DNA of 64,000 nucleotides from Lysobacteraceae bacterium SCN 69-320. GTDB lineage: Bacteria; Pseudomonadota; Gammaproteobacteria; Xanthomonadales; Rhodanobacteraceae. Of the stretch, positions 23,629-44,764 are shown piece by piece. Under the pieces are notes generated by a model that searched no databases, was not told the origin of the DNA, and saw only the letters and a list, made by a program, of their open reading frames with translations. The translations under genes and the position numbers were made by a program. The stretch covers positions 434,001 to 498,000 of the forward strand of contig MEFP01000012.1 of assembly GCA_001725155.1 (NCBI GenBank), read 5' to 3'. Position 1 is the stretch's first letter. Every line of letters begins with the position of its first letter.

Positions 23629-25270
23629 ACACGATAGCGCCCCCCGTGAAGCCGGCGCCTGGGCGCCGCTGAGCCATCCGACCTTCCGTTCGCTGTGGCT
23701 GGCCGTGCTGGTCAGCAACATCGGCACCTGGATCCACGACGTGGCCGCGGCCTGGATCATGGCCGAGACCACGGGCTCGCCGCTGATGGTCGCCGCGGTG
23801 CAGTCGGCCACCACCCTGCCGGTGGTGCTGCTTGCGATCGTCGCCGGCACCCTGGCCGACATCGTCGACCGGCGCCGCTATCTCATCCTCGCCCAGCTGT
23901 GGATGTTTCTCGCCGCGGGCACCCTGGCCGTGCTGGCCCAGCTCGGCCAGCTCGGTCCCTGGTCGCTGGTGCTGCTGACCTTCGCGCTGGGCTGCGGCGC
24001 GGCCATGGCCATGCCGGCGCAACAGGCGACCACGCCCGAGCTCGTGCCCAAGCCGCTGCTCGGCAGCGCCGTCGCGCTGGGCTCGCTGAGCATGAACATC
24101 GCGCGCGCGACCGGTCCGGCGATCGGCGGTCTCATCGTCGCCCAGGCCGGCGCGGCCACGGCGTTCGCGATCAACGCGCTGACGTTTCTCGCCATCGTGT
24201 TCGCGCTGTGGCGCTGGAAACGCATGCCGGCCGAATCGGTGCTGCCGCCGGAATCCTTCGGCCTGGCCCTGCGCGCCGGCCTGCGCTACGCGAGCCAGGC
24301 CAGCGTGCTGCAGGCCGTGCTGGTCCGCACCGGCGCATTCTTCGCGTTCGCCAGCGCGCTGACCGCGCTGCTGCCGATCGTCGTGCGCCAGGAACTCAAG
24401 GCCAGCGCCGGCACCTACGGCCTGCTGCTGGGCTGCATCGGCATCGGCGCGATCAGCGGCGCCGTGCTGCTGCCGCTGCTGCGCCGGCGCTTGCATGCGG
24501 ACCACCTGTTCCTGCTGGCCAGCCTGGTCTACGCGGGCTGCATCGCCGGTGTCGCGCTGCTGCGCGACCTGCGCGCGCTGTATCCGATCTGTCTCGTCGC
24601 CGGCTTCGCCTGGATCAGCGTGCTGTCCTCGCTGCAGATCGCGGCGCAGACCGCGGTGCCAGCCTGGGTGCGCGCCCGCGCGCTGGCGCTGTACATCGTC
24701 GTGTTCTCGGCCGGCATGGCCGTCGGCAGCCTCGGCTGGGGCAGCCTGGCCCAGCATTACTCGGTGCTGGCGGCGCTGCTGGCCGCGGCCGTCGGCACGG
24801 CGCTCGCCGCGCTGCTGACCCAGCGCTGGCGCCTGCGCGACGCCGCGCAGGTCGACGTCACGCCGTCGGGCCACTGGGCGCTGCCCGTCGTCGCCGACCC
24901 GCTGGACTCCGACCGCGGCCCCGTGCTGATCACGATCGAATACCACGTCGTGCCGGCGCAGCGCGCCGCATTCCTGAGCGTGCTGCGCGAACTGGGCCGC
25001 AGCCGCCGGCGCGACGGCGCGATCACCTGGGGCATCGCCGAGGACACCGCCCTGCCCGGCAGCTTCCTCGAGTATTTCAGCGTGGCGTCGTGGCTGGAGC
25101 ATCTGCGCCAGCACGAACGCGTGACCAACGAGGAACGCCGGCTGCAGGAGTGCGTGCTGACGGCGCTGGAGCCCGGCACGCGGCCGCTGGTGCGGCATTT
25201 CGTCGGTGCGGCGGACGAAGGCCTGAAGACGCTGGCCAGGCCGCCCGACAGCGACGGCGTGCTGGGTTAG
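23621..25270 (+). CDS. MFS exporter of the EntS-like MFS_3 family with C-terminal ABM-like domain
   Basis: 549 residues: about twelve membrane helices (first near 29-49, with GTWIHDVAAAWIM and the loop DIVDRRRYL) and a cytoplasmic C-terminal domain of about 100 residues (ITIEYHVVPAQRAAFL through VRHFVGA) resembling an antibiotic-biosynthesis-monooxygenase ferredoxin-like fold. This two-part layout is typical of the MFS_3/transmembrane secretion effector family, relatives of the enterobactin exporter EntS. The exported compound is unknown. Overlap with the response regulator gene suggests it belongs to that sensory operon. Confidence 0.88.
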   Translation: MSEHDSAPREAGAWAPLSHPTFRSLWLAVLVSNIGTWIHDVAAAWIMAETTGSPLMVAAVQSATTLPVVLLAIVAGTLADIVDRRRYLILAQLWMFLAAGTLAVLAQLGQLGPWSLVLLTFALGCGAAMAMPAQQATTPELVPKPLLGSAVALGSLSMNIARATGPAIGGLIVAQAGAATAFAINALTFLAIVFALWRWKRMPAESVLPPESFGLALRAGLRYASQASVLQAVLVRTGAFFAFASALTALLPIVVRQELKASAGTYGLLLGCIGIGAISGAVLLPLLRRRLHADHLFLLASLVYAGCIAGVALLRDLRALYPICLVAGFAWISVLSSLQIAAQTAVPAWVRARALALYIVVFSAGMAVGSLGWGSLAQHYSVLAALLAAAVGTALAALLTQRWRLRDAAQVDVTPSGHWALPVVADPLDSDRGPVLITIEYHVVPAQRAAFLSVLRELGRSRRRDGAITWGIAEDTALPGSFLEYFSVASWLEHLRQHERVTNEERRLQECVLTALEPGTRPLVRHFVGAADEGLKTLARPPDSDGVLG

Positions 25271-25306
25271 GCGACGGCCCGGCTACCCGATGTGGTCAGG
25301 CGCGGC

Positions 25307-27238
25307 TCAGCCGCCCCAGCGGTCGCGCGGACAGCGCTGGTCGATGTCCCGTATGGCAGTGCGCGCCGCCGCGAAGTCGAAATCCTCGCCGCGCCTGATG
25401 CGCTCGATATCGGCCAGCAGCGCCGGGGCATAGCCGCCGGTGCGCAGCGCGACGCAGAACGCGTCGACCGCAAGCTGCCCGTAACCGGCGCGCGCGAAAG
25501 CCAGGCCGGTCGCCAGATAGCCGCCCGGCGCCTCGGGATCGAACGCAATCGCGTAGAACCCCGCCTGCAATGCCGCGCTGCCGTCGCCGAGCGCGACCAG
25601 AGCGAGCGCGTGGTTGCGGTGCGCCGGCGCGTCGCCGAAATTGCTCTGCAGGAAGCGCTCCGACAGGGCCACTGCGCGACGCAGTGCCGCGCGGTCGCCG
25701 GCGCGGTCCGCCTGCGCCACGAGCGCGCCGAGCTGCGCGTCGAAGGTCTCGCGTCGGCCGCGCAGCTGCGCGCCCGGCGCCGGCGTCGCCGGCACATTGG
25801 CGCGCAGCCATTGCAGGCGGCGCGCGAACGCGTTCCGGTCGTTCGGGCGCACCGTGTCGAGCAGCGCATGAATGGCGCTGTCATGTTCCTCGTAGACGAA
25901 TACCGACAGGTCTTCCAGGGTCGAGGCCGACGATCCCTGCGGCACGTTGATGGCCTGCATCGCGACGGCGGTCCTGTCTGCCTTTGGCCGCGACGGCGGC
26001 GTTGCTGCGGGTTCGGCCTGTTGCGGCGATACCGGCACGGAACTCGCGCCGGTGCCGATCCTCGCCGACCCGGCCGGGTCGATCGGCGCCGGAATCGGCG
26101 GCACCGTCTCTGTCGCAACGATCGGCGGCGATGACTCGACCGGCGCGGCTTCGCCCGGTTCCGCGCGCGCCGGCACCGACGGCGCCGGTGCTGCCGCCGG
26201 CGCCGGCCGCTCACTTTGCGGCACCGGCGGTGAAGGCGGCGGCGTGGGCAGTGCGGCCTTGTTCCGGCCCACCGGTGCCGGCTGCGCTGCCGGTGGACCG
26301 GCCGTTGGGGCGGACGACGGCTCCGGCACCCGCGCGCCGGGTAGCGGTGCCTCGGCCGCGGATTGCGGCCTGCGCCACCACCGTTCGGTGTAGCGGTCGA
26401 CGAGCCCGGCGACGGCGGCCAGCACGACGAGCAGCAGCAGGATCCGAAACCGTCGCGATGGTGCCGTCCGTTCGGCGGTCTCAGCTGGCGGAGTCTCGAC
26501 ATCGCGCCGCGGCCGATTCGCCGACGCCGGCGCAACAGCCGCTGCGGCCTGCGGCGGCGGACCTACCGGCTCCTTCGGCGCTGTCTCCGGCGAGGCGTTT
26601 TGCGCTGCCGTCGTCCCCGGGCGCGGCGGCTCGCGCCGCGGCGGGGCCGGCCACGTCGCGGTTTCCGGCGCGGCATCCTGGACATCGACGACGCGGTTCG
26701 CCTGCGCGGTCAATGCCTCGATATAGCGCGCGAGGTCGCCGCCGAACGGCACCGCCTCGGCCGTGCGGTCCGCGCGCCATTCCGCATCGGACCACAGCGG
26801 CTTCAGCGGCACGCCTTCGTCGCTGCAGGCCGTGCGCTGCAGCTCGGGCGCGCGCAGCGCGAGGCTCAGCCCCAGCCGCCGCGACAGCAGCTCGCCGCCC
26901 TGCGGCCGCAGCAGTACGAAGACGCGCTGCAAGGTGCCGGCCACCGGCGCGCGCAGCGCCGAGGGGTCGATGACGAAGGCCGACTTGCGCACCAGGCAAC
27001 GATCCAGTTCCGACTCGCTGCCGCGCTCCTGTTCCATGCGCGCGCGGTCTTCCTGCACACCGGGCAGATCCCTGAAATAGCCGTCCTCGCTGCGGAACGG
27101 CTGATAGACCAGCAGTTCGCCCGTGCGCGTGCCCCGGCTCTGGCGCACGTGGTAGACCAGCCCGTAGTGGACGGCATTCAGCGCAAAGGTGTCCGCCAGT
27201 CCGGCGGCGACGCAGAGTTCGACGCGTACGCTGCTCAT
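25307..27238 (-). CDS. Membrane-anchored Pro-rich protein of the tubulin/actin-like operon
   Basis: 643 residues. An N-terminal globular domain (1 to about 190) is followed by a Pro/Ala-rich linker, one membrane helix near 266-280 with an Arg-rich cytoplasmic flank, a very Pro-rich stretch of about 150 residues, and a helical C-terminal domain (about 450-643) with TPR-like repeats (ALSERFLQSNFGDAPAHRNH, YLATGLAFARAGYGQLAVDA). The topology suggests a cytoplasmic N-domain and a periplasmic helical domain. No known family recognised. It is the last gene of the operon, 17 bases after the VWA-like gene. Confidence 0.8.
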   Translation of the reverse strand: MSSVRVELCVAAGLADTFALNAVHYGLVYHVRQSRGTRTGELLVYQPFRSEDGYFRDLPGVQEDRARMEQERGSESELDRCLVRKSAFVIDPSALRAPVAGTLQRVFVLLRPQGGELLSRRLGLSLALRAPELQRTACSDEGVPLKPLWSDAEWRADRTAEAVPFGGDLARYIEALTAQANRVVDVQDAAPETATWPAPPRREPPRPGTTAAQNASPETAPKEPVGPPPQAAAAVAPASANRPRRDVETPPAETAERTAPSRRFRILLLLVVLAAVAGLVDRYTERWWRRPQSAAEAPLPGARVPEPSSAPTAGPPAAQPAPVGRNKAALPTPPPSPPVPQSERPAPAAAPAPSVPARAEPGEAAPVESSPPIVATETVPPIPAPIDPAGSARIGTGASSVPVSPQQAEPAATPPSRPKADRTAVAMQAINVPQGSSASTLEDLSVFVYEEHDSAIHALLDTVRPNDRNAFARRLQWLRANVPATPAPGAQLRGRRETFDAQLGALVAQADRAGDRAALRRAVALSERFLQSNFGDAPAHRNHALALVALGDGSAALQAGFYAIAFDPEAPGGYLATGLAFARAGYGQLAVDAFCVALRTGGYAPALLADIERIRRGEDFDFAAARTAIRDIDQRCPRDRWGG

Positions 27239-27255
27239 CGGCGATGCGTGGCCGC

Positions 27256-28920
27256 TCAGCGTTTGCGATCGGGATCGAACACGATCTGCAGCGCCGGCGA
27301 CTCGGCCTGGATGTGTTCACCACGTACGTCGCGGGCGCGCGCGACGAAAAGGCTGACGAGACCCGCATAGCCGTAGGTGCGGCGCTGCATCGTTCCGATG
27401 CAGGCGGCAATCTTCCGCGCGTTGCCCTCGGCCTGGCCGAGGCAGTCCTCGTCGCGCAGGTTCAGCGCCTCCAGCCGTTCGCTGTCCAGCGCCGCCGGCG
27501 CCACGGCAAGGCGCAGCGGCAAGGTGGTGCGCAGCGGCGTCGCGCGCGTCAGCGTCAGCTGCAGACTGCGATTGCGCTCGGTGGCCGACGGCTGCGCCAC
27601 CGTCTCCGGCTCAATGACGAAACCCGAGCGCGGATCCAGGTGCAGCTGCAGCTGCACCGCGTCGACCGAGGCATCGAGCAGCTCGCGATTGTCGCGGCAG
27701 CGGCGGTCGACGCGAACAGTGAGCTCGCCGGTATCGCTGCAGACCGGCGCCGCCACGCAACTGGCCAGCGACTCCGCATCGCGCCCGCTGCGCGGGGCAA
27801 TCACTTTCTGCTCATAGGAGGCAAACAGCGCCGTCGCGGCGGCGCCGCGGCGCTGCGGCGGCAGCCAGTCGGCCGGATCTTCGCTGTAGGTCGGTGCAAC
27901 CTGCAGACCGTAGAGCAGCCATTCCGGTCGCGGCGTGTCGAACAGGTGCAGTTTCGCGAGCAGTTCGCGGATCGTGCGCGCGTCGTCCGCATCGGCAGCG
28001 AACCAGACCAGGCTCAGCGGCCGGTCGTGGCGCGGCAGCGACGCAAGCACCGCCAGACCCGGGCTGCCCCGGCGCAAGGTGGCCGCGTAATAGTCGCCCG
28101 CGAACGGCAGCGCCACGGTCACGATGCCGGCGCTGACCGCCGCGCCGCGGGGCTGCTTGCGGTACCAGTCGCGGAAACGATCGACGAAGCCTCGCTGCGC
28201 GCCTTCGTTGAGCACCATGTCGGAGATCAGCAGCAGCGAGCGCGGCGGTGTCTTCGTCGCCGCGGGATCGAAGGCGATCTCGATGTCCGAACTGCCGGCG
28301 TCGAATGGCCCGCAGCTGCGATTCACATAGGCATCGCCGACGACGGCTTTCAGATTGGCCGGCGCATCCTGCAGGACCAGGCTCCTGCCGCCCTTGGTCC
28401 TTGCAGGCGCCTGGCGCAGCAGCAGCACGCGATGATTCTTGTCCGTATCCATCCACAGCATCAGCTCGCCGACGAGTTCGCGGAAACGTCGCGTCTCGTC
28501 GTCCACGCGCAGATAGCCGCACATGCTGCGGGAACCGTCGAGCACGACGTGCACGCCGCGCGGCACGTCCTCGGCCGGCGCCGGCGCCGGCGGCGACGGC
28601 GGCGCGCCGGCACAGGACGGCGGCAGCGCCGTCCCGGCCAGTGCCGCTCCGCCAGCGGGCGGGGACGGGGACGGCGGCGTGACCGGCGCCGAGGCGTCGG
28701 ACTGCTGCTGCACGGCGGCGTTCGGCGCGACGCGAGCCCGCTCCGCGGCAGCCCCGTTCTGGACGGCAGGACGCGGCGCAGGCGGTGGAGCAGCCGGCCT
28801 GCCGCGCAGCGCCAGGACAAGGAGACCGGCGACGAGCGCGGCGGCGCACAGCACGAGCACGAGCAGGCCACTGCTGCCGCGGCCCTGCTGCTGACGGACA
28901 GGACGAGGAAGGCGGTTCAT
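27256..28920 (-). CDS. Anchored VWA-like domain protein of the tubulin/actin-like operon
   Basis: 554 residues. An N-terminal signal-anchor helix (about 19-39) and a Pro/Ala-rich linker of about 80 residues precede a VWA-type domain with an intact D-x-S-x-S metal motif (LDGSRSMCGY, Asp128-Ser132) and a strand reading SLLLISDMVL. Several Cys residues and a beta-rich C-terminal region follow. VWA domains bind protein partners through a Mg2+ site, so an envelope adaptor role is plausible. Its ATG overlaps the stop of the lipoprotein gene (ATGA). The overall protein is not one I recognise. Confidence 0.8.
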   Translation of the reverse strand: MNRLPRPVRQQQGRGSSGLLVLVLCAAALVAGLLVLALRGRPAAPPPAPRPAVQNGAAAERARVAPNAAVQQQSDASAPVTPPSPSPPAGGAALAGTALPPSCAGAPPSPPAPAPAEDVPRGVHVVLDGSRSMCGYLRVDDETRRFRELVGELMLWMDTDKNHRVLLLRQAPARTKGGRSLVLQDAPANLKAVVGDAYVNRSCGPFDAGSSDIEIAFDPAATKTPPRSLLLISDMVLNEGAQRGFVDRFRDWYRKQPRGAAVSAGIVTVALPFAGDYYAATLRRGSPGLAVLASLPRHDRPLSLVWFAADADDARTIRELLAKLHLFDTPRPEWLLYGLQVAPTYSEDPADWLPPQRRGAAATALFASYEQKVIAPRSGRDAESLASCVAAPVCSDTGELTVRVDRRCRDNRELLDASVDAVQLQLHLDPRSGFVIEPETVAQPSATERNRSLQLTLTRATPLRTTLPLRLAVAPAALDSERLEALNLRDEDCLGQAEGNARKIAACIGTMQRRTYGYAGLVSLFVARARDVRGEHIQAESPALQIVFDPDRKR

Positions 28921-30200
28921 AGTTTTCCCAGGCAATGCTGCTGGACGGACACATAGCCAGCCGCGTCGACGGTGCAGTCGGCGGCCTGGCGGAAATTCGG
29001 CCATTGGCGGCCGTCGCCGCTGAACCAGCTGATGAAATTGTAGTTGTATACAACGCGCCGGTTTGGAATCAGCCAGCCGCGCCCGTCCGATTTCGTCACC
29101 GAGAGCACCTTGGGATTGCTGAAGTCCGGACCGGACGAGGCGCCGTGCGCGCCGACGCGCCAGCCCTGCGCGCGCAGCGCTCGTTCGTGCTCGGGAGTCA
29201 GCCGCGCGGCGATCTCCTGGGTCAGCGCCTCCACGTCACGCACCTTGCCTTCCGCGAGCACGATGTCGGCGGCCATCTGGATGCCGACGAGCAGGCGCTG
29301 CAGCGCCACCGCCGGATCCTGCTCGGCCGGCGCAGCCGCTTCGACCCGCGTCATCGCCGTCGTCGCGTAGTCCTGCGCCCTGGCATTGGCGGACAGGAAC
29401 GCGACGTCCGCCGGCTCGACTTCGCCGGGTCCGCGCGGCTGCGCCATTTCAGGCTGCCAATCCGGCGTCGTGCCGGGTCGCGCGTCGGCCGTGTTCGGCC
29501 GTGCCGAAACCGGATGCATCGCCGACCGCGATGACGGCGAGGTCGGCGGCACCGACGAGGTGCGCGCCGACGCCTCCCGGTTCCCACGTCCCTCCAGGAT
29601 CAGCACGCGCTGCTCCAGCGCCAGCAGGCGCTCGCCGAGGCCGGCCTTGTTCGGCACGGCGGCGACGCTGTCCGCGGGGCGCCCCTGCCGCGCGAACTGT
29701 TCGCGCAGCTCGCGCATCTGCTTCGGGAAGCTGCTCTCGAAGCGCGCCATCCAGGCCACCATCACGAGCAGCACCGCGCCGAACAGGCCCAGCGCGAAGA
29801 GAATCCCGCGATTGGATGCCTCGGCCGCCGCGGGCAAATCGGCGGCCGCCGTCGGCGCCGGACGTTCGGCAGCCGGCGCCGGCTGCCGGGACGTCCTGTC
29901 CATGGTTCCTGCCGGCCCATCCGCCGGTGCCGGCGGGGTTTCCCTGGGCGGCGCAGCGGCCGCCGGCACCGAGTCGATGCCCGGGGCCGCGGCGGACGGG
30001 TCGCCGCTCTGGGCCGCTTTTGCGGGCGTCGTCGTGACGGCCGCCTGCGGGACCTCCTTGCGCGTGGCGGCCGCGTCCCGCGCGGGCCCCGCTGCTGCGG
30101 CAGGCAGCGACACTTCCTGGGCGCAGGCCGACAGCAGCAGCGCCGCAGCGACGAATCCGGACCACAGGCCGGACCTGAGCGACCGTCGGTTCGCGCTCAT
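28917..30200 (-). CDS. Lipoprotein with second membrane helix, tubulin/actin-like operon
   Basis: 427 residues. A lipoprotein signal peptide ends at LLLSAC (Cys26), then a Pro/Ala-rich region, a strongly hydrophobic helix at about 132-152, a coiled-coil-like stretch (RELREQFARQ, LLALEQRVLILEG), and a C-terminal domain of about 120 residues ending in SWFSGDGRQWPNFRQ and two Cys residues. A lipid anchor plus an internal helix is unusual and needs a defined topology. The start overlaps the end of the giant fusion gene by 4 bases. Family not recognised. Confidence 0.8.
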   Translation of the reverse strand: MSANRRSLRSGLWSGFVAAALLLSACAQEVSLPAAAAGPARDAAATRKEVPQAAVTTTPAKAAQSGDPSAAAPGIDSVPAAAAPPRETPPAPADGPAGTMDRTSRQPAPAAERPAPTAAADLPAAAEASNRGILFALGLFGAVLLVMVAWMARFESSFPKQMRELREQFARQGRPADSVAAVPNKAGLGERLLALEQRVLILEGRGNREASARTSSVPPTSPSSRSAMHPVSARPNTADARPGTTPDWQPEMAQPRGPGEVEPADVAFLSANARAQDYATTAMTRVEAAAPAEQDPAVALQRLLVGIQMAADIVLAEGKVRDVEALTQEIAARLTPEHERALRAQGWRVGAHGASSGPDFSNPKVLSVTKSDGRGWLIPNRRVVYNYNFISWFSGDGRQWPNFRQAADCTVDAAGYVSVQQHCLGKL

Positions 30201-33200
30201 GCGGCGCTCCCGGCCTGCTGCGCCATCAGCCAGGCGAAACTGCGGCTGGCCGCCACCGACGGCACGCCGGTCAGATACAGCGCGCCGGGGTCGGCATAGA
30301 ACTCGGTGAATTCGCTGCCGTTCTGGAAGATGTTGTGCACATCCTCGTTGCGCAGCCGGCCGCTCCAGTACGGCGCGGTCAGCGGGAAGCGCGCATCCAG
30401 CTGGTCGTCGGACAGATCGAAGACCAGCCGCCGCTTCGAGCGCGACTCGCCCTTGCCGAGTCCCATCCACTGCTCGCGGAACTGCGCCGCGGTCATCAGC
30501 GTGGCCCGCTTCAGCGCTTCGCTGTCGCCGCCGGGGCCATGGGAAACCAGCCCCTCGGGCAGCAGCACGTACTGGTCGCGCCGGTCGTCGAGCAGATCCT
30601 CGCGTGCCGCATCGAGCCCACCGAACGTGATCAGCTTGCTCTTGCTCGAATCCACGAGGCGGAACTCCAGGCGTTCGGCGACGACCGCCGGCAGCAGGCC
30701 GGCCTTCACGAGGCGCTGCTTGATGGACTGGTTGTACCGCTCCAGGCTGTCGCCGCTGCCGGGCGCCTGGAACGCGTCGAACAGCTTGAAGCCGTTGCCG
30801 AGGAGCGCGACTTCGAGTTTCTGGCGCGGGTCGGCGGCGAACTGCTGCACCCACTCCGGATGCCACTGGATGAAGCGGTGGAACACGCCGAACGCGTATT
30901 CGTAGATCGCGTCGAAGAACATGTCCGCCAACAGCGCGGTGCGTTCGCTGCTGGCGCGCGCGCTGCCGTCCCGGCGCAGCTGCGACTTGAGCAGCGACTT
31001 GATCGCGTCGACGCTGTAAGTCTCGCCCGGGGCCGGGTTGAACGACGCGCGGACTTCCTTGAGCGCGGCCAGTGCCTCGAGCAGGCGGTTGCCGGCGAAC
31101 TGCGCGCTCGCCGTATAACTCGCCTCGCCGCGGCCGGAGCGGCCGAAGCGCAGGCAGACACCGACATCGGTCGTGCCGCCGCCGACGTCGATGGTCAGCA
31201 CGCTGGCCGGCAGCGCCGGATTGTTGAGCCCTATCATCCACAGCGCCGCGACCGTCTCGGACACGAAACGCACGGGCGGCTGGTCCGCCGGCGGCTTTTC
31301 CGGCGGCGCGAACATGCCGGTCTGGCGCCCGAGCTGCACGATGACCTGTTCCAGATCGCGCGCGAAGGTCTTGGCAAAATTGTTCTTGACCCGCGACAGT
31401 GCCTCGGGCTGGGTCGCCACGAAGGTCGAGAACGTCTGGTAGCCGCGCGAACGCAGCAGGGCCAGCGCCGCGACCAGCGTGTGCTCCAGATACAGCGCGC
31501 GCAGGCCGCGCGCCTTGCGATGGTCGTTGTCGTTGCCGCGCGGCCATTTGAGATCGCCGAACAGGCGCTCGTCGCCGTACTTGACCATGTCGCGCAGCCA
31601 GGACGACAGCGATTCGGCCCCAAGCCCATAGGGCTGCGGCGGCAATGGCGTCAGCAGCGGCGAGACCAGCGGATAGCCCTGGAGTTCCACCGGCCGCTCG
31701 TCGGCCAGCGGGTCGTGCAGCGGCATCGCCTCGCGCGCGTAGGTACGCAGCAGCAGCGGCTTCTGCTTGCTCGCGACGGTGGGCTCGTAGTCGAGCGCGA
31801 CCAGCAGCTCGCTCGGAACGGTGTGGCCTTCGTCGCTGACCACGGCGTTCTTGACGTGGAAGAAGGCCGCCGCCGAAGACAGGAAGTTCGCCTTCTCGTT
31901 CAGATCGCCCGAGGAGTCCAGGTAGTGGTACAGCACGTCGCTGCGGACGTCGTCGAACGTGCCGCCGGGCAGCAGCGGCACATTGCGCCGCGAGCCGGCG
32001 TCGCCGTCCTTCTCCTGGATCGCGACACAGGTATTGGAGGTACCGAAATCAATGCCGAGCATGTCGAAGCTGCGCCCGGGGTCCAGCCGCTGCAGGCCGA
32101 TCGGGCGCGAACCGAGCACTTCGTCGCCGACGACGACTTCGAGCACTTCGGGACGGCCGTAGATGCGCCGCGGCAGACCGTCGGTGATGCGGCCGAGCTC
32201 CTCCAGCGCGCCGCCGGCGTGGCGCCGCCCCTTGACCACGAGCGCGACGCGCAGCCCCTCGTTCATCCAGTCGAGGTCGACTTCCTTGGGCGCGCTCTTG
32301 CGCGAGTGCGGCGGCGTGTCCGGATCGCCCAGCCGCGAGGAGCCCGAGACGATGTAGTAGTTCCAGTCGTCGGCCTGGAAGTTCGGCCAGATGCCGAACG
32401 ACCAGGCCAGCTCCTGCTGCACCATCGTCAGCGGCTCGGCGCCAAACGGATATTCCTGATCGAAGCGGCCGAGACCGCTGACGTTGAGCTCGATCTTCTG
32501 CACGCGCCGCAGCGCGAGGCTGTGCGCGTCGAGCTTGCGCGAATGCGACGGTGCCAGCACCAGCCGGTTCTTCTCGCTGCCGCCTTCCAGCAGTTCCCAG
32601 GCATCGGCGCGGAACGGCAGCAGGCCGTTCGGGGCTCCGTTCTGATCGACGAAAACGACGCTGCGCCGGCAGCGCAGCGCATGGAAACCCGTCAGCATGC
32701 GGTGCGGCGCGACGCTGATCGACGCGGCGCCGGCGCCGTTGCGGCGCAGCCACAGATGCTGCGCGTCGCCGCGATGCGCATTGCTGCCTATCACCGACGG
32801 CAGATCCTCGAGGATGTCGCCCAGCACGAGGCGCAGGCTGGTCAGCGCCTTGCTGCCGCGGGTCAGATCGGCAGCGTCGATCTGCCCGACCACGGCGTGC
32901 AGTTCGCGTGCGAAATAGCGGTCCAGCGTCTTGGTCAGCGTTTCGTTGGGCTGCTCCAGCCGGGTCAGCGGATTGTCGTTGCGGTAGCAGCGCCGCACGC
33001 TCGGCAGCTCGCCGGTCAGCGCGGCGACGAAGCGCCGCGCCGCGCCGTTGGCCGCGACGTACCAGGTCGCGCCGTCCCAGAGCAGGATGGGCTTGCCCGC
33101 ATCGGGACTGCTCGCGGCGAAGACCAGCGCCGTCAGCGGATCGCCGTCGGCGAGTTCGAGCTCGCGGCGCAACAGGCGCGCGAATGCGCTGCCGCGATTC

Positions 33201-35497
33201 TGCGCGGTGAACAGGTCGTGCGCGACGCTCACGCGCGAGTCCGCCGACACGAGCAGCCAGAAACCCAGTTCGTTGACCCGCTGCGCCTGCAGATAGATGC
33301 CGGCCTCGGTCGCGCGCAGACGGCCTTCGTCGTCGCGCCAGGCCGGCGCGCGGCGCTCGGCCGCGGTACGCGGGCGGCAGTGTTCGAGCCGCCATTTCTG
33401 CACGAGCCGCGGCGCGGCGACGTTCGGGATGCCGCGCAGACCGTGCTCGGTCGGCACCGGCGCAGTCAGGTCGAGGCGGCCGCCGTTGCCGAGATTCGCG
33501 CCTGCGTACGGATCCAGATAGGCCAGCGAACGCGGATGGTCGGCGCCGAAGCGGTCGACGTTGCCGATGTCCTCGTCATCGAGCTTGATCTGCGCCAGGC
33601 GCGCGTCCTCGATCGGCGTCGCGGTCAGCGCGCTGAGGTTGAGCATCGGCAAGCCGCCGCCGGGCGCCGCCGCATCGGCGAGCTGGCGGTCGTCGCTGAC
33701 GCTGTCCTTGCGGCGCGCCTTGTCGCGCGCGTCGAACACGCGCCGGTGCAGGGCCCGCATCAGGGTGCGTGCAGCCACACGCGAGGCGGCCTCGCCGGGG
33801 TCGACCTCGCAGGCCTTGTGGAATTCGGCGATCAGCGCGTCGACCGGCGCGGCCGCGTTCTTGCGATTGCCGTCGGCGAACAGCTGCATCAGCAGCATGA
33901 TGGCCTGGCTGATCGGCTTGGCGCTGGCCATGGACTGGCCCTCGAAATTGCGCACGTCCAGGCGCAGATCCTCCCAGCGCTTGTCGGCGCCCTCGCCTTC
34001 GTCGAGGCTCGCGTCCTCCAGCGAGCGGAACAGATGCGCCGTGCTGTAGCCGACGACGCCGTTGGCCTGCGCCGCATCGGCGCCGGCCCGGTTGGCCGCG
34101 TGCGCGTCCAGCCAGAGCAGGGTCCGGCGCAGTTCCTGCGCCTGTGCGACGAGCTGGGCGCCGAGTTCGTGGAAGACATCGTCGGGCGCCGTCGTACGCC
34201 GCGACAGCCAGCCGCGCGTCACCTTGCCCTTGCGCAGCGCCTCCGACAGCGCGATCAGGAAGCGGTCGAGCTCCTCCTGGCTGCCGAGCCTGTCGACGTT
34301 CTTGAGCTTGAGCACGCCGTCCTCCGCCGCCTGCAGCAGACGGCCGCAGACGTCGAGCACATAGGCGACGGCTTCCGCGTCGGCGACGAGATCGCCGAGC
34401 TGGCGCGAATCGTCGCTGCCGGCGCGAAAGCGCAGATGCGGCGAGCGCGCGGCGTCGAAGCGGCCGCGCGCTTCGCCGGGTTCGCTGGTCTTGATGCCGT
34501 AGAGCTGACCGCTCGGCGCATTGCCGACGCCCAGACCGAGGAAGTTCTGTATCGCGCAGGCCTGCACGAGATTCAGGACATGCGGATTCTCGCGCTGGTC
34601 GTAGTTGCCGTCGTCGCCGCGCCGCTCGGTCTGCCAGTCCGCCATCGACTGGCTCAGTACATAGGCCGAGCGCAGCAGGCCTTCGCGCTGTCCGCCGCCG
34701 TGCAGGCCGTCGCCCTGCCGCGCGCCGCCGCGCAATTCGTCGAAATAGGTATGCAGCCCGAGCGAGGAATTGCGCGCCTTGGGATCCACGTCGCCGCGGC
34801 TGCGTGCGGCGCTGACCTGCCCCTGCCCGGCCTCGGCCTCGATCGTGAACCAGGGCAAGGTCAGGAACGCGCGTACCGCTTCGATCGGGTAGCCGTCGAG
34901 GCGGCGCACGAGCGCCGGAATGACGCCGGAACCCGTGCCGCCGAAATTCGAGCCGACGATGGCCACGCGCGTGTCCGGCCGCAGCACGTCGAACAGCCGG
35001 CCGAACTGCGCGCCGACCGCGCGCGCGGTCGAGCCGTCGCCGAGCACCTCGGCCTTGTGCGCCAGCGCCAGGGAGCCGACCTTGGGATTGGCCATCATGC
35101 CCTTGGCCAGTTCGATCGACCAGTCGTCGCCCCAGTCCGCATCGTCGGCGAGAAAGCCCTGGGCGAGCTGGCGCACCGCGTCGTTGCCGGTCACACCGAT
35201 CAGCTGTCCGAGTATCGGCGAGGCTGCCTCTTCGGTCGCGCCGACGCGGAACGGCCGGATGATCTCCAGCACCGCCGGCGTCGTGTCGCCGTGCATCAGC
35301 GCCGCCTGCAGACCGGCGATGTCGTCGACGAGACTGCTGCGTTTGCCGGGGCCGGCGCCGAGCCGCGCGTCGGCGTCGACGATGAAGATGTGCGGCACGC
35401 TCTCGGCCGGCGAGAAGGTCAGCGCGAGCAGGCGCAGATAGGCGTGGATGACGTGCTGGCCGGAGCCGCCCACGCCGATCAGGACAGGTCGTGTCAT
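30197..35497 (-). CDS. Giant fusion: tubulin/FtsZ-like GTPase domain plus actin/Hsp70-like ATPase domain
   Basis: 1,766 residues. The N-terminus has a Rossmann start with GVGGSGQH (residues 8-15), an acidic strand end IVDAD and the tubulin/FtsZ signature NFGGTGSG (Gly186-Gly191 core), as in bacterial Tubulin_2-type proteins. A middle region of about 700 residues is unassigned. From residue 1146 an actin/Hsp70 fold is clear: phosphate-1 MLGIDFGTSNTCVA, phosphate-2 TIDVGGGTTDVGV (Asp1437) and adenosine motif ALLGNGFKLFDAF (about 1560-1572). Both nucleotide sites look intact. No membrane helices. It is the second gene of a five-gene operon with envelope proteins. The nucleotide specificities and polymer formation are inference. 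Confidence 0.85.
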   Translation of the reverse strand: MTRPVLIGVGGSGQHVIHAYLRLLALTFSPAESVPHIFIVDADARLGAGPGKRSSLVDDIAGLQAALMHGDTTPAVLEIIRPFRVGATEEAASPILGQLIGVTGNDAVRQLAQGFLADDADWGDDWSIELAKGMMANPKVGSLALAHKAEVLGDGSTARAVGAQFGRLFDVLRPDTRVAIVGSNFGGTGSGVIPALVRRLDGYPIEAVRAFLTLPWFTIEAEAGQGQVSAARSRGDVDPKARNSSLGLHTYFDELRGGARQGDGLHGGGQREGLLRSAYVLSQSMADWQTERRGDDGNYDQRENPHVLNLVQACAIQNFLGLGVGNAPSGQLYGIKTSEPGEARGRFDAARSPHLRFRAGSDDSRQLGDLVADAEAVAYVLDVCGRLLQAAEDGVLKLKNVDRLGSQEELDRFLIALSEALRKGKVTRGWLSRRTTAPDDVFHELGAQLVAQAQELRRTLLWLDAHAANRAGADAAQANGVVGYSTAHLFRSLEDASLDEGEGADKRWEDLRLDVRNFEGQSMASAKPISQAIMLLMQLFADGNRKNAAAPVDALIAEFHKACEVDPGEAASRVAARTLMRALHRRVFDARDKARRKDSVSDDRQLADAAAPGGGLPMLNLSALTATPIEDARLAQIKLDDEDIGNVDRFGADHPRSLAYLDPYAGANLGNGGRLDLTAPVPTEHGLRGIPNVAAPRLVQKWRLEHCRPRTAAERRAPAWRDDEGRLRATEAGIYLQAQRVNELGFWLLVSADSRVSVAHDLFTAQNRGSAFARLLRRELELADGDPLTALVFAASSPDAGKPILLWDGATWYVAANGAARRFVAALTGELPSVRRCYRNDNPLTRLEQPNETLTKTLDRYFARELHAVVGQIDAADLTRGSKALTSLRLVLGDILEDLPSVIGSNAHRGDAQHLWLRRNGAGAASISVAPHRMLTGFHALRCRRSVVFVDQNGAPNGLLPFRADAWELLEGGSEKNRLVLAPSHSRKLDAHSLALRRVQKIELNVSGLGRFDQEYPFGAEPLTMVQQELAWSFGIWPNFQADDWNYYIVSGSSRLGDPDTPPHSRKSAPKEVDLDWMNEGLRVALVVKGRRHAGGALEELGRITDGLPRRIYGRPEVLEVVVGDEVLGSRPIGLQRLDPGRSFDMLGIDFGTSNTCVAIQEKDGDAGSRRNVPLLPGGTFDDVRSDVLYHYLDSSGDLNEKANFLSSAAAFFHVKNAVVSDEGHTVPSELLVALDYEPTVASKQKPLLLRTYAREAMPLHDPLADERPVELQGYPLVSPLLTPLPPQPYGLGAESLSSWLRDMVKYGDERLFGDLKWPRGNDNDHRKARGLRALYLEHTLVAALALLRSRGYQTFSTFVATQPEALSRVKNNFAKTFARDLEQVIVQLGRQTGMFAPPEKPPADQPPVRFVSETVAALWMIGLNNPALPASVLTIDVGGGTTDVGVCLRFGRSGRGEASYTASAQFAGNRLLEALAALKEVRASFNPAPGETYSVDAIKSLLKSQLRRDGSARASSERTALLADMFFDAIYEYAFGVFHRFIQWHPEWVQQFAADPRQKLEVALLGNGFKLFDAFQAPGSGDSLERYNQSIKQRLVKAGLLPAVVAERLEFRLVDSSKSKLITFGGLDAAREDLLDDRRDQYVLLPEGLVSHGPGGDSEALKRATLMTAAQFREQWMGLGKGESRSKRRLVFDLSDDQLDARFPLTAPYWSGRLRNEDVHNIFQNGSEFTEFYADPGALYLTGVPSVAASRSFAWLMAQQAGSAA

Positions 35498-35523
35498 GGT
35501 GTAGTCGCTCGTAGGGGGACGGT

Positions 35524-36153
35524 TCAGACGATGATGAACAGTCGCTGCAGCAGCGGCCGCAGCAGCAGGAAACCGAGCAAGGCGGCCAGCGCCGCGGAAA
35601 CCAGCGGCCAGCCGCGCGTCGCGGTCGGGCCCACCGGCAGGTCGCGCTGCCGCTCGTCCTCGATCCAGCGCGCGAGGCTGACCAGCCCGAGTGCATTGGC
35701 GGCGTGTTCGCGCGCTTCGGCGCAGTACAGGTCGTAGGCCTGGGCCGCCGCGCCGCTGCGCAGCGGCGCCTCGACGCAGCGATCGGCGTCGGCGGAGGAC
35801 AACGTGAAGGTCATGAGCCAGAGCGAGAACACGGCCGTCAGCACGGCGACGATCAGGCCCGCGGGCACGGAATGCCGCAGCAGCCGCTGCCGGCGATAGA
35901 GGAACAGGCCCAGTCCGGCGGCCAGGCCGAGCACGACGGCGACATAGACCAGCAGGCGCACGGTGTGGAACGCCGCGAGCAGCCCGCTGCCGTCATCGAC
36001 GGTCTGTGCGATCGCCGCGAACGGCATGCCGGCCAGTGCGGCCATGACTCCCGCGCGCCACGCACCGCTGCCGGACCGCGCACGAGCGGCGTTTCGCTGC
36101 ATGTCCGTGGCGGCCGGTGCCGCCGAAATCTGCCCTGCCCGCTGCTCCCGCAT
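35524..36153 (-). CDS. Multi-pass membrane protein, first gene of the tubulin/actin-like operon
   Basis: 209 residues with a hydrophobic signal-like segment (MAALAGMPFAAIAQ, about 37-50) and three further helices (about 64-85, 98-120 and 185-205). The loop between the last two helices, likely periplasmic, contains two Cys residues (ADRCVEAP and LYCAEAREH). ATG 36153 has GGGGAG upstream; an ATG at 36102 just before the hydrophobic segment is possible. 26 bases separate it from the fusion gene. No family recognised; it may anchor the cytoplasmic fusion protein. Confidence 0.7.
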   Translation of the reverse strand: MREQRAGQISAAPAATDMQRNAARARSGSGAWRAGVMAALAGMPFAAIAQTVDDGSGLLAAFHTVRLLVYVAVVLGLAAGLGLFLYRRQRLLRHSVPAGLIVAVLTAVFSLWLMTFTLSSADADRCVEAPLRSGAAAQAYDLYCAEAREHAANALGLVSLARWIEDERQRDLPVGPTATRGWPLVSAALAALLGFLLLRPLLQRLFIIV

Positions 36154-36402
36154 CGCTGCGCACTCCCCGTCTCGAAAGGCCCGGACGCCGGGACGGTCGT
36201 CCGTCGACAGCCTTCGATGCGGTGATCTGCCGCCAGCGGTCTGAACCTCTCAGCAGCGACGCTCGGCGTCGTGCGAAGCAGGCACTGTCCGTCCGGTTGC
36301 GCTGAACGCAACGCGCGCGACAACCGTCATGCAGGACAGGCGGCTGCCATGCGCGCTGTCGTGCAGCCGGCCGCCGCGCGGCGGTTGCGGGCAGCGGCAA
36401 TG

Positions 36403-36702
36403 CTACGGACGAGACTGCGACTTCTTGAGCTTCTTGTGCTCGTCCCATTCCTGGCGCGAGACCTTGCCGTCGCCGTTGCGATCGACTTCGGCAAAAGTCA
36501 CGTTCTCGGCCGTCGTGCCGCGCGCGAACTCGTCCTTGTCGAGCATGCCGTTGCCGTCGCTGTCGATCTGATCGAATACCGGGACGTGTTCGCCGGTCGG
36601 CGTCTGGTCGCGGCTGAGCCTGTCGTCGTTGGCAGCCGACAGCAGCGGCGCGGCGGCAAACGCGACGGCCAGGGCGGCGGCAACTGCGGAAGTCCTGGAC
36701 AT
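36403..36702 (-). CDS. Exported EF-hand calcium-binding protein
   Basis: 99 residues: signal peptide (about 1-23, ending LLSAAND) and two EF-hand loops, DSDGNGMLDKDE and DRNGDGKVSRQE, both with the expected acidic/Asn ligands at positions 1, 3, 5 and 12. A Lys-rich tail follows. It probably binds Ca2+ in the periplasm as a sensor or buffer. GAGGAG precedes ATG 36702. It is upstream of the tubulin/actin-like operon on the same strand but 249 bases away, so cotranscription is uncertain; that gap shows only a small dyad GTTGCG/CGCAAC (36296-36312). Confidence 0.85.
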   Translation of the reverse strand: MSRTSAVAAALAVAFAAAPLLSAANDDRLSRDQTPTGEHVPVFDQIDSDGNGMLDKDEFARGTTAENVTFAEVDRNGDGKVSRQEWDEHKKLKKSQSRP

Positions 36703-41728: not shown

Positions 41729-44700
41729 GTGAACTACGTCTCATTGTGCTGGTTGGCTTTCGCCGGACTCTCGGTTTCTCCCCTGGCTCTCGCGCGCAGC
41801 GGCGCCGAACCGCCCGCGCTGCAGCAGCATCTGGATTGGCTCGATGCCTCGCCGGCGGCGGCCAAGCGCAGCGCCGACGCCACACCGCTGCTGCAGGGCC
41901 GCTATCCGCAGCTCGCCGGTCTGGAACTGCGCCGCAGCGCCGATCGGCGCAACCGCATCGAAATCTATCGGCCCCAGATCGCCGGCATCGAGATCTACGG
42001 CGCGCGACTGAGCCTGCTGCGCGACGCCCGCGGCGAAGCCCGCGCCAGCGGCGGCAGCCTGCCGGCCAAGCTCGACAACGCCGCGCTGCCGACCTTCGCG
42101 CTCGACGCGAAACAGGCGCTGCAGCAGGCGCTGCAAAGCCTCGATATTCCCGCCGTACCGGATGCGGGCGCGGCCAAGCGCAGCAACGGCGACTTTCTGC
42201 GCATCAGCCTGACCGGCAGCGGCGACTTCACGGCGCTGCGCCCGGCCCGCATCAAGCCGGTCTGGTATCCGACCGCAGACGGACTGACCGCCGCGTATTA
42301 CGCCGAAGTGCTCGGCAAGCGCACCGGCGAATCGCGTCCGCTGGCCCTGGCGCTGGTCGTGTCGGCCGAAGACGGCCGCGTGCTGCGCCGGCAGAGCCAG
42401 ATCCACGACCTGCAGGCATTCGACTATCGCGTGTTCGCCAATGCCCAGGGCCGCCCCTACGTCGATCCCTACGGCTACACCAACCCGCATCCGACCGGCC
42501 AGGCCAACGGCTACAAGCCGACCGTGGCAGCGCCGATGAACCTCGTGCATCTCAGCGACGCCGGCACCGGCGATCCCTGGCTCGCGGCCACGGCGGAAGA
42601 GACCCGCGGCAACAACGTCGATGCGTTCTTCAATGCCGACACGGTCGAGGAAGACTATTGCAGCGGCGAAGGCTGGGGGCCGGGCTTCAACGCCGCCGAA
42701 GGCGATTTCCGCGCACGCACCACGGCGCCGTTCCGCTTCGACTACGCCTACGACGTCGACACCACGCGCAACGACTACGACCAGTGCCGCGACGCGACGG
42801 CGCCGGTTCCGACCGGCGACATCGGGCTCAACGCGAAAATCGTGCAGGGCTTCTATGCGACGAACTGGTTGCATGACCTGTTCTACGCCGCCGGCTACGA
42901 CGAAGCCGCCGGCAACAGCCAGACCGACAACTACGGCCGCGGCGGCATCGCCGACGATCCGCTGCTCGTGCATGCGGCCTCGCTGACCACCTTCACCTAT
43001 GCACCGACCGACGGCGAAAGCCCGGCGCTGACCCTGGGCTACAACACCCAGAGCCGCAGCCATCGCGACGTCAGCGCGTTCGATCTCGGCGTGCTCGCCC
43101 ACGAATGGGCGCATACGATGTTCGGCCGCCTGACGACCTCGGACTACTACGGCCAGCCCGGCGCGCTCAACGAAGGCACGGCGGACTTCGTCGGCCTGTT
43201 CGTGACCGTGCGCGAGCAGGACCGCTGGGCCATGCCGGGCCAGCCGGCGTTCTCGGCCGCGTACGCGGTCGGCGCCTACATGAACCTCGACTACGACTTC
43301 AGCGGCGACGACCTGCCGATCGCCGGTTCGCCGACCAATCCCGACAACAGCTACTACCACGGCATACGCCGCTATCCGTATTCCAGCGACCTGCAGCGCA
43401 ATCCGCTGACCCTGCGCCACATCAGCCAGGACAATCCGGTGCCGGCCGGCAGCCAGCCCTACGACTGGAAGGCGCGCTCGCTCGTCAATGCGGAAATCCA
43501 TACCGCCGGCGAGGTCTGGACCACGGCCCTGTGGCAGTGCGCGCGCAACGTGCTCGCGGCCGCGCCGTCGGCGCAGTTCGAGACGCGCCAGCGTGACTTC
43601 CTGCGCTGGCTGGTCGGCGGCCTGCAGCTGTTCCCGACCGACGCGACCTACACCGAAGCGCGCAATGCGCTGCTGTTCGCGATCCGCGCCGACAGCGAAG
43701 CGGACTATCGCCGCTGCCGCAGCGGCTTCGCCGAACGCGGCTTCGGTTCCGGCGCGCTGTCGCCGCCGCGCAAGTCGTTCAGCCTGCGCGGCGTGGAGGA
43801 AAGCTTCCGCGACCTCGACCATGCGCTGAGCATCGTCGAGGTGAGCCTGCGCGAGAACGGCGGCGACGGTGACGGCGTGCTCGATCGCAACGAGAACGGC
43901 GACGTGCTGGTCACCCTGCGCAACAGCGGTTTCGCGCCGCTGAGCCGCGTCACCCTGACCGTGCCGCCGCTGCCGGGCCTGTACGACCTGCCCAACGGCA
44001 TCGTCGTGGACAACATCGCGCTGGCCCCCGAGCAGACCCGCGTGATCGCGTTGCCGGTGCGCGTGCGCAGCGGCTTCGGTCCGCTGACCCTGCCGGTACA
44101 GGCGTTCGCCTGGGATACGCAGCATCCGGAAGCGTTCGCGCTGACGGTGCGGCCGTTCGAGTTCAACGTCGACCTGCGCCGCGACCGCAACGTCGACAGC
44201 CTTGCGCATCCGGCGACGTTCGCGGCCGACTGGATTCGCGGCTTCGACGACTATCCGCACGGCTGCGCGCTGTATGTCTGCCTCGGCGCCGAGGGCGATG
44301 ACCTCGCCGAGGTGCTCGACTGGCAGCGCCGCCGCTACAACGGCAGCTGGGCCTATGTCATGAGCGATGCGCAGTTGGGCCTGAACACCTGGCTCGCGAC
44401 GCAGCCGTTCACGGTCTCGGCGACGACGCCGCTGGAGTTCGTGCTGCGCCACGACTTCGACTTCGACCGCTCGCCGGTTACCCCGGGCTACGGCCGCATC
44501 GAGATCCGCATCGACGGCGGCGACTGGCAGGACGCCGCACCGCTGCTGAGCGCCGGCAGCGCTTCGTTCAGCGGCCTCTCCGGCGGCTGGCGCGACGACA
44601 CCCTGCGCTTCGGTGCCAGCCTCGCCGGCCATCAGGTGCAGCTGCGCCTGCGCACGCGCGTGATCAGCACGTTCCGCCCGAACGACGCGCACTGGGCCAT

Positions 44701-44764
44701 CGCCCGCGCCGAAATCCGCGGCGCGACGCAGCCGGTGTTTTCGTCGGTGATCGCCGACCAGTAA
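41729..44764 (+). CDS. Secreted M36 (fungalysin-type) zinc metalloprotease
   Basis: 1,011 residues. Signal peptide (about 1-23), a propeptide region with the FTP-like pattern, then the M36 catalytic domain with the zinc motif HEWAH (His458-His462) and the third ligand Glu in NEGTADF. The C-terminal third includes an Asp/Asn-rich segment (GDGDGVLDRNENGDV) that may bind calcium and beta-sandwich domains likely used for substrate or surface binding. Such enzymes digest extracellular protein. GTG at 41729 was chosen because CGGAG precedes it and the signal peptide starts at once. Confidence 0.92.
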   Translation: MNYVSLCWLAFAGLSVSPLALARSGAEPPALQQHLDWLDASPAAAKRSADATPLLQGRYPQLAGLELRRSADRRNRIEIYRPQIAGIEIYGARLSLLRDARGEARASGGSLPAKLDNAALPTFALDAKQALQQALQSLDIPAVPDAGAAKRSNGDFLRISLTGSGDFTALRPARIKPVWYPTADGLTAAYYAEVLGKRTGESRPLALALVVSAEDGRVLRRQSQIHDLQAFDYRVFANAQGRPYVDPYGYTNPHPTGQANGYKPTVAAPMNLVHLSDAGTGDPWLAATAEETRGNNVDAFFNADTVEEDYCSGEGWGPGFNAAEGDFRARTTAPFRFDYAYDVDTTRNDYDQCRDATAPVPTGDIGLNAKIVQGFYATNWLHDLFYAAGYDEAAGNSQTDNYGRGGIADDPLLVHAASLTTFTYAPTDGESPALTLGYNTQSRSHRDVSAFDLGVLAHEWAHTMFGRLTTSDYYGQPGALNEGTADFVGLFVTVREQDRWAMPGQPAFSAAYAVGAYMNLDYDFSGDDLPIAGSPTNPDNSYYHGIRRYPYSSDLQRNPLTLRHISQDNPVPAGSQPYDWKARSLVNAEIHTAGEVWTTALWQCARNVLAAAPSAQFETRQRDFLRWLVGGLQLFPTDATYTEARNALLFAIRADSEADYRRCRSGFAERGFGSGALSPPRKSFSLRGVEESFRDLDHALSIVEVSLRENGGDGDGVLDRNENGDVLVTLRNSGFAPLSRVTLTVPPLPGLYDLPNGIVVDNIALAPEQTRVIALPVRVRSGFGPLTLPVQAFAWDTQHPEAFALTVRPFEFNVDLRRDRNVDSLAHPATFAADWIRGFDDYPHGCALYVCLGAEGDDLAEVLDWQRRRYNGSWAYVMSDAQLGLNTWLATQPFTVSATTPLEFVLRHDFDFDRSPVTPGYGRIEIRIDGGDWQDAAPLLSAGSASFSGLSGGWRDDTLRFGASLAGHQVQLRLRTRVISTFRPNDAHWAIARAEIRGATQPVFSSVIADQ

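Follow-up and report, generated by a model that had tools for sequence, protein, structure and literature searches.

The window analysed here is a 64,000-nucleotide stretch of the Lysobacteraceae bacterium SCN 69-320 genome (contig MEFP01000012.1, positions 434,001–498,000), and coordinates below count from its first letter. On its minus strand, at 30197–35497, lies the gene for P0001, a 1,766-residue protein in which a tubulin/FtsZ-like and an actin/Hsp70-like nucleotide-binding domain share one polypeptide. Its open reading frame (ORF) begins with ATG, has no internal stops and has fused homologues elsewhere. It stands second among five co-oriented genes, which encode a membrane protein, the fusion, a lipobox/transmembrane (TM) protein, a vWA-like protein and a last protein. 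The tubulin/FtsZ-like domain comprises residues 1–320 (34538–35497), as judged by homology, profiles, conserved sites and a predicted model, in which a mostly helical stretch extends it to residue ~500–560. The middle region, residues 561–1139 (32081–33817), has a low-confidence model and no assigned fold. An actin/Hsp70/MreB-like ATPase domain, recognised by profiles, fold search and conserved sites, follows at residues ~1140–1640 (30578–32080). Antisense to the gene runs a 1,800-residue ORF (30335–35737, plus strand), which we rejected as a gene; it is most likely a by-product of the very high G+C content at third codon positions (GC3, 0.90).

A preliminary description of this DNA had read both sets of nucleotide-site motifs from the letters, and we recovered the 1,766-residue ORF and its motifs at G8–H15, N184–G191, G1148–T1156, T1435–D1444 and L1566–D1574. 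To count conserved sites, we kept 36 tubulin-part and 32 actin-part rows in the alignment, P0001 included, after dropping rows with a profile E-value above 1e-10 and actin ORFs under 780 residues. In the tubulin part, G10, G11, G13, D41, D43, G182, S183 and the GGTG sequence are invariant in 36/36 rows. The three N-terminal glycines belong to the T1 motif GVGGSGQH (residues 8–15, 35453–35476), and the GGTG residues G186, G187, T188 and G189 to the T4 signature NFGGTGSG (residues 184–191, 34925–34948). The T1 glycine loop and T4 GGTG loop of FtsZ and tubulin are thus present in P0001 and its relatives. After the fifth strand comes an LP(Y/W)F motif, which we take to resemble the PF motif of FtsZ.

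In the actin part, phosphate-1, connect, phosphate-2 and adenosine motifs occur in the order expected of actin and Hsp70. The phosphate-1 motif GIDFGTSNT (residues 1148–1156, 32030–32056), placed by sequence and alignment, contains D1150, kept in 30 of 32 rows; the remaining two are gapped there. Invariant in all 32 rows are K1317 and W1318 (31544–31549), E1414, the residues D1437, GGGT and D1444 of the phosphate-2 motif TIDVGGGTTD (1435–1444, 31166–31195), and G1567 of the adenosine-type motif LGNGFKLFD (1566–1574, 30776–30802). K1317 is a candidate catalytic lysine; presumably K1317, E1414 and D1437 are the counterparts of the Hsp70 catalytic lysine, glutamate and aspartate. Phosphate-1 and phosphate-2 lie ~280 residues apart in P0001; the spacing in MreB is shorter.

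A scan of genome contigs with the tubulin-part alignment returned 129 stretches, among them six loci. Psychrobacter glacincola (L007) and a Psychrobacter metagenome-assembled genome (L006) each carry a single fused ORF, of 1,732 and 1,739 residues, respectively. By blastp, L006 matches P0001 residues 5–1759 (E = 1e-130) and L007 residues 5–1576 (E = 5e-128), both at ~28% identity. Another Psychrobacter-family genome has a fused 1,732-residue ORF on a 3.33-Mb contig, and in Acidobacteriota L078, which is more distant, both domains occur in one 1,599-residue ORF. In Psychrobacter sp. JCM 18903 (L008, 1076–6272), the fusion gene is interrupted and reads as several ORFs, through either decay or an error in sequencing. 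The window protein and the three Psychrobacter-family fusions cluster in both domain trees (99/96 and 100/100), which were midpoint-rooted only. The placement of L078 differs between the trees: its tubulin part, at the end of a very long branch, joins the other fusions (100/99), whereas its actin part falls among Acidobacteriota (87/66). When the fused set was compared, profile to profile, with the cyanobacterial sets described below, the probability was 99.2% for the tubulin part and 99.0% for the actin part, the latter over the core only; these were single comparisons without an unrelated control.

The fusion is genuine, because fused relatives exist in other genomes; these also rule out an assembly artefact, which the preliminary description had named as a possible source. 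The fusion is not recent, because those relatives are divergent. Two further matches we took as chance, one in genome G367 (E = 2.9e-4, 151 residues, five internal stops, and no match with the residue 1–499 query) and one in G1010 (41 residues, one stop). With P0001 alone as query, the genome-contig scan gave 14 stretches, none confirmed; the tubulin-part query gave 95 stretches in viral contigs, again none confirmed; and the phage collection searched held no match.

For an independent test, we used domain profiles built only from cyanobacterial stand-alone proteins, so that no training row came from the window, Psychrobacter or Acidobacteriota. They were run against all 337 window ORFs and their 337 reversals, and at E ≤ 10 P0001 was the sole sequence matched, so its domain matches are not due to chance. 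The tubulin-like profile matched residues 6–230 (whole-sequence E = 6.5e-8). The actin-like profile reached a whole-sequence E of 8.3e-5, summed over three ordered blocks, 1012–1049, 1147–1165 and 1335–1480, that are individually weak (domain E = 0.48, 1 and 0.063).

Elsewhere, the two units are encoded by separate genes. On two Picosynechococcus plasmids, proteins of 503 and 509 residues match P0001 residues 1–320 (E = 2e-5 and 2e-3), and the adjoining gene codes for a 1,093- or 1,100-residue protein with actin-type motifs, which matches P0001 weakly in pairwise comparison (best E = 0.002, in a 12-protein set). Of the genomes searched with the tubulin-part profile, 21 of 292 in cyanobacteria and 8 of 199 in Acidobacteriota were positive. 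We counted linkage at 22 of 23 cyanobacterial places, leaving out the canonical Tubulin_2 locus L082. The stretch read held an actin-like ORF at 18 of these 22 loci, and all eight Acidobacteriota loci had the partner (7 split, 1 fused); at L065 the actin-like ORF lies ~4 kb from the tubulin-like gene. A vWA profile match was found at 18/22 cyanobacterial and 6/8 Acidobacteriota loci. The linkage profiles were trained on the window, L003, L004, L006, L007, L009, L010 and L011, which match by construction. Excluding seeds, actin-like linkage stands at 16/20 in cyanobacteria (minus two seed genomes) and 7/7 in Acidobacteriota (minus L011). Linkage of the pair in cyanobacteria and Acidobacteriota, together with its fusion in Pseudomonadota, suggests direct physical cooperation.

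The pairs vary in layout. At Acidobacteriota L011 (9812–14755) and L074 (4130–8873), the gene boundary lies elsewhere, giving tubulin-like proteins of 753–757 residues and actin-like proteins of 826–838. This may reflect a moved boundary that divides the middle region differently, a reading weakly supported by a profile match (E = 0.0014, probability 18%). Cyanobacterial L062 (2–1879), L067 (15943–17001) and L068 (2542–2865) each have, close to the main pair, an additional incomplete actin-like match, which suggests tandem paralogues. In Snowella (L009, 11519–12082), a 187-residue ORF separates the two genes. Cyanobacterial genome G1211 has two tubulin-like loci, L056, near a contig end, and L059, with no actin-like match in the stretch read.

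The preliminary description had left the middle ~700 residues unexplained. Only their end, from residue ~1012, matches by sequence the pre-core region of the stand-alone actin-like proteins. Residues ~560–1010 correspond to the N-terminal part of those proteins by position only, in a forced global alignment and with a poor model.

The neighbouring genes, all on the minus strand, add candidate partners. First in the operon is a 209-residue protein with three hydrophobic segments (35524–36153), the positional counterpart of an upstream protein with 4–5 TM segments in relatives; it has a sub-threshold holin-like Pfam match (16.6 of 28.4 bits). At two junctions, a start codon overlaps the preceding stop as ATGA, between the fusion gene and the gene for the 427-residue lipobox/TM protein (28917–30200) and between the latter and the vWA-like gene (27256–28920). 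The vWA-like protein, P0004, has an N-terminal TM segment and a DGSRS motif resembling a metal-ion-dependent adhesion site. It takes its name from this motif, because Pfam vWA matched neither P0004 nor the relatives scanned. P0004 matches three Psychrobacter-type vWA-like genes (BLAST E = 3e-9 to 3e-7; profile E = 0.0024). Position by position, the Psychrobacter loci repeat this gene order, but sequence similarity among the partners is confined to the vWA-like protein. The last gene (25307–27238), identified by ORF and TM prediction, encodes 643 residues with one TM segment and no Pfam match at E ≤ 1. In NCBIfam, too, the five operon proteins gave sub-threshold matches or none. Outside the operon, an M36 fungalysin-type metallopeptidase gene lies at 41729–44764 on the plus strand (E = 3e-42).

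By profile scores, the tubulin part appears to be a divergent relative of Tubulin_2 (PF13809) and FtsZl1. P0001 itself scores 11.8 bits whole and 15.5 as a fragment, against a cut-off of 27. Above the cut-off are the fused L006 (45.7) and L081 (38.4) and the stand-alone L061 (29.2) and L063 (28.6); under it are P0022 (20.0), P0009 (22.1) and L062 (25.6), and L011, L074, L075 and L078 have no Pfam Tubulin_2 match. In cyanobacterial genome G1363, L082 (8555–11938) encodes a canonical 1,127-residue Tubulin_2 protein (366 bits) alongside the actin-linked pair L071; L082 has no actin-like match within the 12 kb read, which end just past its gene. On the actin side, the domain profile matches MreB by sequence (E = 1.3e-5), NCBIfam MreB matches P0001 at E = 4e-4, far short of its cut-off, and the Pfam HSP70 model is matched by residues 1409–1448 only.

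Structure predictions were built from only six sequences. The N-terminal model, of low confidence (mean predicted local distance difference test, pLDDT, 50.5), has the tubulin-like order S1-H1-S2-H2-S3...S4-H4-S5-H5-S6. By Foldseek, 45 of its best 50 of 279 PDB matches (E ≤ 10) are titled tubulin, microtubule or tubulin homologue; the other five listed entries (9w2m, 4x1i, 7sqc twice and 7som) presumably contain tubulin as well. Identity to the matches listed is 11–16%. An ordinary Rossmann enzyme without tubulin topology, the other doubt raised in the preliminary description, we consider unlikely for the N-terminal domain, as the fold search with this low-confidence model lists tubulins. For the low-confidence actin-part model, the best Foldseek match is an Hsp70 (E = 2.7e-4), with 21 rows at E ≤ 0.001, and the best 50 of 988 PDB matches (E ≤ 10) are Hsp70, MreB, actin-related, ParM, CorM and Ppx/GppA chains or complexes containing such chains. 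The actin part therefore has both profile and fold matches to solved members, the latter through a low-confidence model. The proposal that one polypeptide carries domains of both superfamilies is borne out by fused homologues, profiles and conserved nucleotide-site residues. What these data establish is the fused architecture, its homology and conserved sites, the operon, the linkage seen in relatives and a patchy distribution.

Cytoskeletal proteins of the actin and tubulin types are regarded as belonging to separate lineages. Judged from sequence comparison, their partnership is real and recurrent, and it is fused in the window. The window genome also has strong matches of FtsZ type and MreB type at other places, which suggests that the tubulin-like/actin-like system is accessory. 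Here, the two classic cytoskeleton families probably work as one machine, because relatives carry both units, as a fusion in some cases and in neighbouring genes in more of them. We lean towards a natural fusion of the linked pair that acts, within a membrane-associated complex, as a two-headed nucleotide switch. The tubulin-like head would bind GTP and organise assembly at the membrane. The actin-like head would run an ATP cycle and, with it, open and close on its target, which may be the middle region or a partner (the vWA-like protein, for example). Members of the complex would be the fusion, the small membrane protein, the lipobox/TM protein and the vWA-like protein, which is predicted to be exported. 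We infer in this the identity of the nucleotides, their hydrolysis, the formation of the complex and its role, which may lie in envelope remodelling or in a conflict or stress response. A stricter form, which we put forward tentatively, is an obligate 1:1 pairing of a tubulin-family GTPase with an actin-family ATPase, with coupled GTP and ATP cycles in a membrane-bound assembly, fused in at least one lineage. If true, this would be the first system with both cytomotive superfamilies as a single unit. Coupling of GTP and ATP cycles becomes testable on a single polypeptide.

Several results weigh against a two-headed switch. P0001 falls below the Pfam cut-offs for Tubulin_2, Tubulin, HSP70 and MreB, and much of the case for its domains comes from relatives, a weak point. 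No acidic column past residue 320 is invariant in the 36 rows, and the T7 catalytic acid was not located. Mostly acidic columns occur at 359 (31/36 rows, Ala in P0001), 362 (25/36, Asp) and 506 (24/36, Lys). The tubulin-part profile found nothing significant among PDB sequences (best E = 1). Both models are uncertain, the N-terminal one with pLDDT 50.5 and a predicted template-modelling score (pTM) of 0.56, and the poor actin-part one with mean pLDDT 36.9 and pTM 0.32. On the tubulin side, Foldseek reached a best E of 0.021, with query template-modelling scores of 0.18–0.26 among the matches listed, and 0 of the 279 PDB matches had E ≤ 0.001. Four of the 22 cyanobacterial loci lack an actin-like ORF in the stretch read, namely L056 and L073, at contig ends, L059 and L072. 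The small-membrane-protein profile matches at 15/22 cyanobacterial but 0/8 Acidobacteriota loci, and the 209-residue membrane protein has no profile match to the small membrane proteins of relatives.

Distribution bears on an unlikely alternative, an anti-phage or stress conflict system, in which nucleotide-triggered assembly would damage or contain the cell, and the vWA-like protein and the membrane proteins would serve as sensor or effector. Occurrence is patchy. The family of the window genome holds one convincing case in 233 genomes, its own, the Psychrobacter family two in 249, and a phylum-wide search with the tubulin-part query (residues 1–499) found the window genome alone among 299. 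The closest genome of the same genus, a 680-contig draft, lacks the stretch 25264–36414 (edges accurate to tens of bases) and has 131 unaligned bases in its place; a flanking major facilitator superfamily protein is 93% identical. This presence or absence at one site, and the plasmid location of two cyanobacterial copies, would suit a conflict system, as would the conflict roles predicted by Kaur et al. 2020 (PMC7159879, in the available part of the text) for GTPase-centred systems with tubulin and HSP70 members. Against it, none of the five operon proteins matched PADLOC at E ≤ 0.1, and their Pfam matches include no GTPase, nuclease or other effector, barring the sub-threshold holin-like match. 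At the site itself, a comparison of the two edge stretches found no exact repeat of ≥ 10 bases in common, the window has a single tRNA, 2.4 kb away from the edge of the absent stretch, and G+C of the operon region matches that of its surroundings.

Rather less probable is a dual cytomotive machine, in which the tubulin-like part would polymerise with GTP and the actin-like part would polymerise or cap with ATP, forming mixed membrane-tethered filaments. The tubulin-like strand–helix order of the N-terminal model is consistent with such filaments, as is the presence of MreB, ParM and Arp in the fold matches of the actin part. However, two lattices with 1:1 subunits would presumably require matching repeats, and the T7 acid was not identified, an elusiveness that the T6-H7 region shares in FtsZl1, where Makarova and Koonin 2010 (PMC2875224), in the text available, did not confidently identify the counterparts. 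A chaperone-like ATPase whose tubulin-like domain is a degenerate scaffold that has lost GTP binding would fit the divergence of P0001 and the elusive T7 acid, but we consider it improbable, since retention of T1, D41/D43 and the T4 core in 36/36 rows across three phyla argues for selection on nucleotide binding, and the five operon proteins have no Pfam match at E ≤ 1 to an Hsp70 substrate-binding domain, DnaJ or GrpE.

The two-headed protein can be set beside known families. Like Hsp70/DnaK, MreB, FtsA and ParM, it has ordered phosphate-1, phosphate-2 and adenosine motifs with profile and fold matches; unlike them, it has several hundred residues ahead of the actin-like core and a tubulin-like partner, fused or nearby. 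With FtsZ and tubulin it shares the T1 and T4 motifs and, in a low-confidence model, the strand–helix order through S6; unlike in these, a T7 catalytic motif was not identified and no tubulin C-terminal domain is recognisable.

In the accessible literature, excluding subscription papers and supplements, we found no described tubulin-like/actin-like fusion or linked pair. One class in Kaur et al. 2020 (PMC7159879) joins TRAFAC GTPases, tubulin homologues and an HSP70 chaperone, which counts against full novelty; in the available text, section 29 presents tubulin and HSP70 as themes that do not overlap. Like the window type, the DO-GTPase systems of that paper combine tubulin-family, HSP70-family, vWA and membrane proteins. 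They centre on DO-GTPases and GAP1, and the text available describes no tubulin–HSP70 fusion. The five operon proteins have no Pfam match to a P-loop or TRAFAC GTPase, with Pfam coverage of DO-GTPase and GAP1 unchecked.

The available text of Makarova and Koonin (PMC2875224) describes FtsZl1 as having a coiled coil and then a helical domain behind its FtsZ-like domain; its partners include P-loop GTPases, and none that is named is actin-like. In the window type, by contrast, a ~500-residue tubulin-like part is joined to or lies near an actin-like ATPase; the operon has this ATPase in place of the extended coiled coil and helical C-terminal domain of the FtsZl1 layout (coiled coils were not computed), and no P-loop GTPase Pfam match. 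What the FtsZl1/Tubulin_2 operons (PMC2875224, as available) and the window share is a divergent FtsZ-like domain, membrane proteins and a vWA-like partner, here P0004, by its motif and its match to relatives. FtsZl1-like/vWA operons would thereby gain a second nucleotide-driven component.
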